Below, piece after piece: positions 8,047 through 41,887 of a stretch of 43,120 nucleotides of DNA. Origin of the DNA: a virus. The translations under genes were made by a program, and so were the position numbers. A model generated the notes under the pieces. That model had not been told where the DNA came from, did no database searches, and saw only the letters and a list, made by a program, of their open reading frames with translations. The stretch spans positions 1-43,120 of the IMG/VR virus record IMGVR_UViG_3300048912_000044. One strand, written 5' to 3'. Positions within the stretch are counted from its first letter, which is position 1. Each line of letters begins with the position of its first letter.

Positions 8047-8121
8047 AGGCTCCAGGTGTAATGGCTGCATGCCGGCCTCCAAAGCCGTGCGGACGTGGTT
8101 CGAATCCACGGGGGTTTGCCA
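8047..8121 (+). tRNA. tRNA-Trp (CCA)
   Basis: A 75-base cloverleaf can be drawn. The acceptor arms AGGCTCC/GGGGTTT pair with three wobbles. A 3-bp D stem follows, then an anticodon stem CGGC/GCCG around loop CTCCAAA with anticodon CCA, a T stem CGTGG/CCACG around TTCGAAT, discriminator G, and an encoded CCA. Loop and discriminator match bacterial tRNA-Trp. One mismatch (C27-T43) closes the anticodon stem. A phage tRNA could supplement host supply for tryptophan-containing virion proteins. Confidence 0.8.
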
Positions 8122-40163: not shown

Positions 40164-41150
40164 TCAGATGGTCAGGTCTTCCAGCTTGGCGATGACTTCG
40201 TACTGCGGTTCTGCGTCAAGGTCAGTGGATGCCAAGGCTTCAATCACGCCGTCATCCAGCAGTTGCAGGCACAGATGACTGGCGCGCTCTTCGTCGATCT
40301 TGAAACGCGACACCAACCAGGCCAGTTCGAAGTTCGTGGCATGCAGCACCACGGTCTGCTGAACTTCGCTGTAGGTCAGTTCGCCGTACAGTTGAGAATT
40401 GACCAGTGCATCTGGAGCATCAGTGAGTGGCTTTCCGGCGCGCACGATCTCGTACTGGCCGTTCTGATCAGTGCCCACGAACTTGACCAGACCTTCGCCC
40501 TCGTACAGCTTCAGCAGCGCTTCGGCCTTGTCATAGCCAATGTGCAAAATATTCTGAAGGCCTTTGATGCTAGCGTTCTGTTGGATGGTAACGAAGTCTC
40601 GGCCGTCGGCGATAAGCTTCGGAGTCAGCTCAATCTTCTTTTCTGTGCCGGCCTTGGCCTTGGGCGCCGACTTCTTGCCGGCCGGCTTACCGTCGCCTTC
40701 AAGATCGAGTGGCTTCTGGTCCTTTTCGCCGACGTGGGCACTCATGCCCTCGTTGTAGTTGTTGGAGTAGAGGACGATCAGGATGTCCGACTTATCGTGA
40801 GTCTTGTCTGTCAGGACGTGGCGGTTTGGCTCGTCGCCTTCGATCACCATGGTGGCGGTGAGCTTGCCGTCGATCTTCAGGGACTTCATCTTGGCCTGGA
40901 CGCACTCCACACCCTGGCTGTTGATGACGCGGGCAGCGGTGGCGGTGATCTTCTTCAGTTCGGCGCCGATCTCAGCGATCACCGCGTCCTGCTCCTTCTC
41001 GCCCAGCTTGTTGAATGCCACCTCACGCTTGCGCATCAGGCCCAGGACCACTTCGGTGATATCGTGGTTCATCAGTTCGGCGGCCACTTCCATCGGGGAA
41101 AGCCCGTCTTTCTTGGCTGCTGCAACTACTGCTCGTTGTGCGCTGTTCAT
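40164..41150 (-). CDS. DNA-binding protein with tandem FtsK-gamma-like winged helices
   Basis: This 328-residue protein has an N-terminal phage domain (about 20-150: EKEQDAVIAEIGAELKKIT, IDGKLTATMVIEG, SDILIVLYS), seen in phage proteins near recombination genes, then a Lys/Ala linker (150-172). Two FtsK-gamma-like winged helices follow: 178-224 (DFVTIQQNASIKGLQNILHI, YDKAEALLKLYEGEGLV) and 260-305 (FELAWLVSRFKIDEERASHL, LQLLDDGVIE). There is no motor domain, so it is a DNA binder, not a translocase. ATG 41150 follows GAAGGAAG. It lies right after the structured RNA element, and expression may depend on read-through there. Confidence 0.85.
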   Translation of the reverse strand: MNSAQRAVVAAAKKDGLSPMEVAAELMNHDITEVVLGLMRKREVAFNKLGEKEQDAVIAEIGAELKKITATAARVINSQGVECVQAKMKSLKIDGKLTATMVIEGDEPNRHVLTDKTHDKSDILIVLYSNNYNEGMSAHVGEKDQKPLDLEGDGKPAGKKSAPKAKAGTEKKIELTPKLIADGRDFVTIQQNASIKGLQNILHIGYDKAEALLKLYEGEGLVKFVGTDQNGQYEIVRAGKPLTDAPDALVNSQLYGELTYSEVQQTVVLHATNFELAWLVSRFKIDEERASHLCLQLLDDGVIEALASTDLDAEPQYEVIAKLEDLTI

Positions 41151-41180: not shown

Positions 41181-41307
41181 TGCAAAAAAAAGCCCGTTCT
41201 AGTCAATGCCTTGGTCAGACTCCCATCTGTGGTCGACCAGTGCCGGGGAGGCTTGATCACAGATGGAAACAAGGCATTGCTACAACGGGCTTGTCCCCGG
41301 CACATGG
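41181..41307 (-). ncRNA. Structured RNA element: three stacked helices, crossing helix and U8 tract
   Basis: This noncoding stretch on the minus strand can form helix P1 (AAGCCCGTT 41292-41284 with AACGGGCTT 41198-41190, 9 bp) and helix P2 (41279-41270 with 41213-41204, 10 bp, extended by three pairs around a bulge). Helix P3 pairs 41266-41253 with 41236-41223 (nine perfect pairs, then more with wobbles). The P3 loop holds TCCCCGGCAC (41249-41240), complementary over 10 bases to GTGCCGGGGA (41303-41294) just 5' of P1, and over 13 with one bulge. That helix crosses P1-P3, so it is a pseudoknot or an alternative fold. P1 is followed by T8 (41190-41183), as in a terminator. It could be a regulated terminator (5' leader) or a stand-alone RNA. 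Confidence 0.72.
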
Positions 41308-41346
41308 TCTTCTTGCTTCGACTGTCTGACGGTCTTGGCGGGAGTG

Positions 41347-41375
41347 ATAATGCTACGACTCTGCCGCACTTGCAA
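41347..41375 (-). promoter_or_regulatory. Candidate promoter for the structured RNA
   Basis: On the minus strand TTGCAA (41375-41370) and CATTAT (41352-41347) are 17 bp apart, each matching four of six consensus bases. Start would be near 41340, giving an RNA of about 155 bases to the T8 tract. It lies in the end of the preceding gene. Confidence 0.4.
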
Positions 41376-41550
41376 TAGCTTCTCGGATACGGAATTTACG
41401 CAGACGGTTGCGCCCGTTTGTTCGTGCGCAGCATTTGCAGAACCTGTTCCCTCTGGAATCTACCCCAGTATTTTCAGGCGTGTACTCATGGCCCGCGTAG
41501 CAATGCGACTTGATGAATCGCCTGGTCTTGATGCAGTAGTAATCACTCAT
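41353..41550 (-). CDS. Small zinc-finger protein, HNH-like (65 aa)
   Basis: ATG 41550 follows GGGAG. The 65-residue product has SHCYAGHEYTPENT and then RFCKCCARTNGRNR: a Cys-x3-His then Cys-x2-Cys type zinc site in the pattern of phage HNH-like proteins (C..GH..T..N, C..C). The typical catalytic helix is missing or short, so nuclease activity is doubtful. It ends directly before the structured RNA region, and overlaps the upstream gene by eight bases. Confidence 0.8.
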   Translation of the reverse strand: MSDYYCIKTRRFIKSHCYAGHEYTPENTGVDSRGNRFCKCCARTNGRNRLRKFRIREAIASAAES

Positions 41551-41887
41551 CACCAACTCCCTTCGGCGGCAAGTCCGTGTAGCTGGCCAGGGTGCAGGCA
41601 TACTTCGACTGGATGGCGAAAACCTCGATCTTGTCGACCTTGCGGCTCAGCAGATCGCGCATGGCCTGAGGGTTGGCGTAGCCAAGGCGCTTGCCCGAGA
41701 ACTCGACCCGCTCCCGGTAAGATACGGCCTCTATGTACGACAGCAGCTCCTTCATGTCTCGGACCTTGATCGAGACTTCATCGAAGCCCCGACCCTCTGC
41801 CCGCTGAACTTCCGGGAGAAGCCAGCGCGCGGTTTCCTCGGCAGAGGCCTTGCGGGTTTCGAAGTGTTTTGCGTGGTTGGCGCTCAT
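41543..41887 (-). CDS. Hypothetical protein (114 aa)
   Basis: This 114-residue protein is soluble and mixed alpha/beta: KASAEETARWLLPEVQ, a VRDMKELLSYIEAVSYRERVEF centre, and an end with KVDKIEVFAIQSKYACTLASYTDL (in parts). No family is recognised. ATG 41887 overlaps the upstream stop by ATGA and GTGAGG lies before it. It belongs to the accessory string past the circular join. Confidence 0.8.
   Translation of the reverse strand: MSANHAKHFETRKASAEETARWLLPEVQRAEGRGFDEVSIKVRDMKELLSYIEAVSYRERVEFSGKRLGYANPQAMRDLLSRKVDKIEVFAIQSKYACTLASYTDLPPKGVGDE

Follow-up and report, generated by a model that had tools for sequence, protein, structure and literature searches.

Genomic context and architecture of the RNA element

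The stretch of DNA analysed here (hereafter the window) comprises all 43,120 nucleotides of the IMG/VR virus record IMGVR_UViG_3300048912_000044 and carries, on its minus strand, a noncoding RNA element of approximately 157 nt (about 41340 to 41184) with its 3' end at a U8 tract. Upstream of the element lie the gene for a 114-residue protein without a Pfam or PHROG match (41543-41887, minus strand) and a small gene with a partial match to HNH-endonuclease families (41353-41532, minus strand), the stop codon of which adjoins a -10-like hexamer. Downstream, the ATG of a gene for a 328-residue protein with an FtsK-gamma-like domain (phrog_6576; 40164-41150, minus strand) is found 33 nt past the U8 tract. 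Genes related to the latter occur elsewhere in other phages, where the RNA element is not directly upstream. The window also contains a tRNA-Trp gene with the anticodon CCA (8047-8121, plus strand).

The original prediction described four long helices at 41181-41307, three of them nested and one crossing the others. All four are present at that place, with the coordinates of P1, P2, P3 and the crossing helix PK confirmed, but a second crossing helix, P4, had been overlooked; the location was thus correct while the extent was not, as the P4 5' arm and a promoter-like site lie further upstream and enlarge the element to about 41375-41184 on the minus strand. The five helices, namely the nested P1, P2 and P3 and the crossing PK and P4, are assembled from arms that follow one another 5' to 3' on the minus strand as the P4 5' arm, an A-rich linker, the PK 5' arm, the P1 5' arm, P1b and the P2 and P3 5' arms, and then, beyond the loop AAGCC, the PK 3' arm, the P3 3' arm, the P4 3' arm, the P2 3' arm, P1b, the P1 3' arm and U8.

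P1, the terminator stem, pairs 41284-41292 with 41190-41198 and runs, as had been claimed, directly into T8 (41191-41184, minus strand), the last two bases of the stem overlapping the tract. Following a G-G mismatch, P1b joins UAG (41280-41282) to CUA (41200-41202) and leads into P2 (41270-41279 with 41204-41213) and P3 (41255-41266 with 41223-41234), the latter with 11 of its 12 pairs formed in the window. Of the two crossing helices, P4 pairs GUCAGAC (41324-41330) with GUCUGAC (41214-41220), whereas PK joins GACCA-u-GUGCCGGGGA (41294-41309) to UCCCCGGCACUGGUC, inside the P3 loop (41235-41249), over 15 bp (10+5) with one bulged U; all of these arms are on the minus strand. The spacers between P2, P3, PK and P4 measure only 0-5 nt in the window, and no nucleotide is common to the crossing and the nested helices, every base being used once. 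With the crossing helices left out of the fold, the minus strand still reaches -60.6 kcal/mol (z = -5.7; equalled in 0 of 200 shuffles). A kink-turn at an internal loop of P3 was ruled out, P3 being continuous in the window and the loop absent.

Relatives of the element in other phages

Among phage records, BLAST matched 41 nt of Pseudomonas phage AH02, and this match is part of a complete homologue whose P1, P2 and P3 are different. Ten more relatives were obtained from relatives of the downstream gene and from a motif scan of viral contigs, and a covariance model (R1), trained on ten other phage sequences with the window and the relative L023 left out, matched both of these out of sample (E = 6e-23 and 5e-36, respectively, such model E-values being rough). 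Further members (L254, L281, L248 and L277) were added through relatives of the downstream recombination genes; L277 led to phages HU1 and Orimi01, and L349 and L354 came from further motif scans, while a looser motif, GACCANNTGCCGGGGA, was dropped as too unspecific in viral contigs. The family now comprises at least 20 phage sequences, including the Pseudomonas phages AH02, HU1 (from P. lactis) and Orimi01 (from P. syringae), and falls into two types, a main one and a second one (L277, L349, HU1 and Orimi01), with one confident copy per record under models R1 and R2. Pseudomonas is also the probable host of the phage in the window. A blind search for the architecture (a P1 beside a T-run, with an adjacent crossing 9-mer) across 338 sequences (2.49 Mb) recovered family members and two chance matches.

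Elsewhere, an exact-motif scan of GTDB representative genomes gave 81 matches, in each of which the covariance model saw only the short motif, and which are therefore attributed to chance. A model search of 392 genomes from the order of Microbulbifer, run with strict filters and without a positive control, gave none. The window element matches no Rfam 15 family at the gathering threshold, and at relaxed thresholds none of the elements of the window, HU1 and L248 came close to a gathering score; a literature search found no paper describing the element.

In the neighbourhoods examined, the element is situated between accessory genes and recombination genes, on a constant strand relative to the operon. 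The next gene belongs to one of several unrelated families (ERF, YqaJ-like, RecT-like, FtsK-gamma-like as in the window, or HNH), and between distant pairs the flanks are at background identity where the element is, in some, about 90% identical. The only recurring neighbour found is the approximately 110-residue family of the 114-residue protein, which an iterative search places upstream in about 12 of the 20 loci; between HU1 and the window this upstream protein is 94% identical while the element types differ. Noncoding RNA genes are rarely annotated in phage genomes, and the present element keeps its covarying helices, its promoter-like site and its place ahead of recombination genes although the genes on either side are exchanged, a persistence that suggests strong selection. 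With at least three cultured Pseudomonas phages as carriers (AH02, HU1 and Orimi01), it is open to experiment now.

Covariation of nested and crossing helices

Homologues whose pairs do not covary had been named in the original prediction as one of the observations that would speak against it. In an alignment of 16 sequences and 51 pairs, standard pairs occupy 97.3% of the pair cells and 32 of the 51 have changed on both sides, a number reached by 0 of 500 shuffles, so that the element came through this comparison. Shuffle tests are inflated by kinship among the sequences, and safer evidence is provided by a control in which the partner columns were slid, where pairing falls to 30-46% and at most 11 pairs retain changes on both sides, together with matched changes in the crossing helices.

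These matched changes are found in both crossing helices. The P4 5' arm occurs as GUGGAAC, GUCAGAC, GUGAGAC and UUGAGAC, each with a matching 3' arm. PK is nearly invariant within the main type, and elsewhere its arms change in step: GGGGA/UCCCC becomes GGGA/UCCC in L281, with one base lost from each arm, and GCCGGGAA/UUCCCGGC in L248, together with GACCAAU/AUUGGUC, while within the second type GGGG/CCCC in L277 corresponds to GGGA/UCCC in Orimi01. The window belongs to the family by the same measure, its P4 (GUCAGAC/GUCUGAC) and PK (10+5 bp) being paired although the sequence differs. Among the nested helices, no two of 11 representatives have the same P2 arms, yet pairing is complete except for a single mismatch in L018; P1b covaries as AAG/CUU, UAG/CUA, UGA/UCA and UGC/GCA; and between P1 and P2 the same small elements (a mismatch, three pairs and a bulge) recur. 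With P1 and P3 likewise supported by pairing and covariation, the changes extend to all five helices, which strongly supports the earlier view of a structured, pseudoknotted RNA that exceeds an ordinary terminator. All helices are kept and none competes with another for pairing partners, which is most simply read as one compact fold; this would probably be sterically possible, although it requires the P3 arm to fold back along P1/P2. The loop sequence CCUCCCC was also considered as an anti-Shine-Dalgarno element and was ruled out, as it is not retained in HU1 or L248.

Promoter-like site and predicted terminator

Upstream of P4, 20 of 20 members contain a sigma70-like site, consisting of TTGxxx at a fixed place, a 16-18-nt spacer and an xAxxxT hexamer that ends 15-18 nt 5' of P4 (the -10/P4 anchor distance having been chosen after inspection of the data). 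In the window, these are the -35-like TTGCAA (41370-41375, minus strand) and, across a 17-nt spacer and at the conserved position, the -10-like CATTAT (41347-41352, minus strand), an arrangement that, judged by its sequence, would place a transcription start near 41340. A strict promoter rule is passed by 14 of 15 representatives, compared with a shuffled mean of 0.14. The -10 hexamers match the consensus at only 3-5 of 6 positions and the window hexamers at 4 of 6 each, which is why a generic promoter scanner with stricter hexamer rules does not list the site in the window.

At the other end of the element, a U-tract directly follows P1 in all members and makes this stem a predicted intrinsic terminator. 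The promoter-like site and the U-tract, both common to all members, would thus delimit a predicted unit of promoter, RNA and terminator. Among members, the next start codon follows within a few tens of bases or less, a gap too short for another promoter.

A proposed autonomous small RNA or a possible leader of the recombination operon

The explanation favoured here, with moderate confidence, is that the locus is an autonomous small-RNA gene of the phage whose product would act through its shape, most likely in trans. From the sigma70-like site where the upstream gene ends, transcription would begin near 41340, the RNA would fold into a compact double pseudoknot of five helices, and the closing stem P1 would double as an intrinsic terminator, with release at U8 after about 157 nt. 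The same terminator would restrict transcription into the following recombination genes, which would then depend on read-through. Action by shape is suggested by the way in which almost every helix has changed its sequence without loss of the common shape, and by the lack of a conserved seed among the exposed single-stranded parts; the RNA would then most likely be a scaffold or a decoy, with a protein of the host or of the phage as its partner. The out-of-sample match of the window, the covariation, the matched indel and compensatory changes in PK, the promoter-like site, the U-tract, the single copy per record, the separate bases of the crossing and nested helices and the conservation of the element amid flanks at background identity all count in favour of such a gene; against it, the -10 hexamers fall short of the consensus and were located with an anchor distance set after inspection, a promoter and a terminator would equally fit a leader RNA, and the same-direction place just before the recombination block would be unneeded for an RNA acting purely in trans.

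The strongest alternative, which is possible though rather unlikely, is a role in cis as attenuator or leader for the recombination operon, in which PK/P4 or a bound factor would set the balance between termination at P1 and read-through. The position of the element ahead of recombination genes in the neighbourhoods examined agrees with such a role, as does the lack of space for another promoter between the terminator and the next start codon, and prefix folding predicts that PK, and then P4, form before P1/P2 in three of the four sequences examined. The original prediction had put forward a two-state leader of this kind beside a separate small RNA ending at U8. Of the two, the separate RNA has gained, given the promoter-like site in 20 of 20 members (which a leader would have too), and the two-state leader has become weaker: the terminator and the putative antiterminator helices share no strand and are therefore not base-pairing alternatives, and the two helix sets differ in energy by anything from -20.7 to +6.9 kcal/mol, so that a tuned thermodynamic switch is not conserved and was rejected as unsupported. 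The downstream genes come from unrelated families, and the covariation of every helix suggests coexistence of the helices rather than exchange between them. In the folding model, early formation of PK/P4 is compatible with a kinetic effect. Riboswitch and attenuator leaders resemble the element in their order of promoter, structured RNA, terminator and gene and in having pseudoknotted cores, and differ in that the element has no antiterminator sharing the terminator strand, precedes unrelated genes and has no Rfam match. A small RNA and attenuation may both hold, as polymerase has to read through to arrive at the recombination genes; nevertheless, a small RNA recognised by its shape appears the more probable account.

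An extension of the small-RNA explanation is advanced only tentatively, namely that the element represents a new class of phage small RNA, in which the pseudoknotted shape would divert a host protein early in infection and the terminator would be part of the knot. RNA polymerase, a nuclease or a defence protein would be speculative candidates for the diverted target.

Comparison with known RNAs and remaining explanations

Structured RNAs are also found in the early operons of other phages, such as the put antiterminator RNAs of phage HK022, which are paired simple stem-loops that promote read-through, whereas the element described here has its own predicted terminator and two crossing helices. 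The packaging RNA of phage phi29 is likewise small and structured, has loop pairing and is transcribed from a promoter of its own, and differs in architecture and phage type, the present element again having no Rfam match. Some GOLLD-like ornate RNAs are phage-borne. The large ornate RNAs of the GOLLD type are noncoding and highly structured (cf. PMC12286853), and are much larger than the present element, which has no Rfam match.

The closest parallel in layout is RCd22, the RNA of a phage-encoded AbiF system of Clostridioides difficile, in which a promoter, a structured RNA of similar size (132 nt) and an intrinsic terminator precede a gene that lies 168 nt away from the start site and is reached by read-through (PMC12373285). 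This parallel speaks for the improbable explanation that the element is an RNA antitoxin, or another protein-neutralising RNA, encoded ahead of the gene for its partner on the pattern of type III toxin-antitoxin or AbiF systems. No matching Rfam or sequence relationship to RCd22 was found, the gene that follows the present element is something other than AbiF and varies between members, and the element has neither the RNA repeat array nor the constant toxin gene of type III systems; the only recurring neighbour, the approximately 110-residue protein family, lies upstream and in only about 12 of 20 loci.

A similarly low probability is assigned to a strong terminator with merely incidental helices, or to a DNA-level boundary site for module exchange. 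The element does lie at a module boundary, and AH02 (L002:3925-4660) has a complete element and, beyond an HNH homing endonuclease gene, the 3' half of another that is of the second type, an arrangement that may be a sign of insertion or recombination inside such elements. The compensatory changes in P4 and PK would be needless for a terminator, however, and the promoter-like site at the 5' end and the constant strand relative to the operon also argue against this explanation. A short peptide gene is barely credible: a 42-codon frame is open in AH02 and in the window, but no frame is shared, the longest being at most 26 codons in L017, L016 and L013 and at most 28 in L281, and L254 and L281 have indels that put the frame out of register. 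The annotated hypothetical protein AH02_28 (QZA71312.1, L002:3928-4056) lies wholly within the RNA element of AH02 and is probably not a gene.
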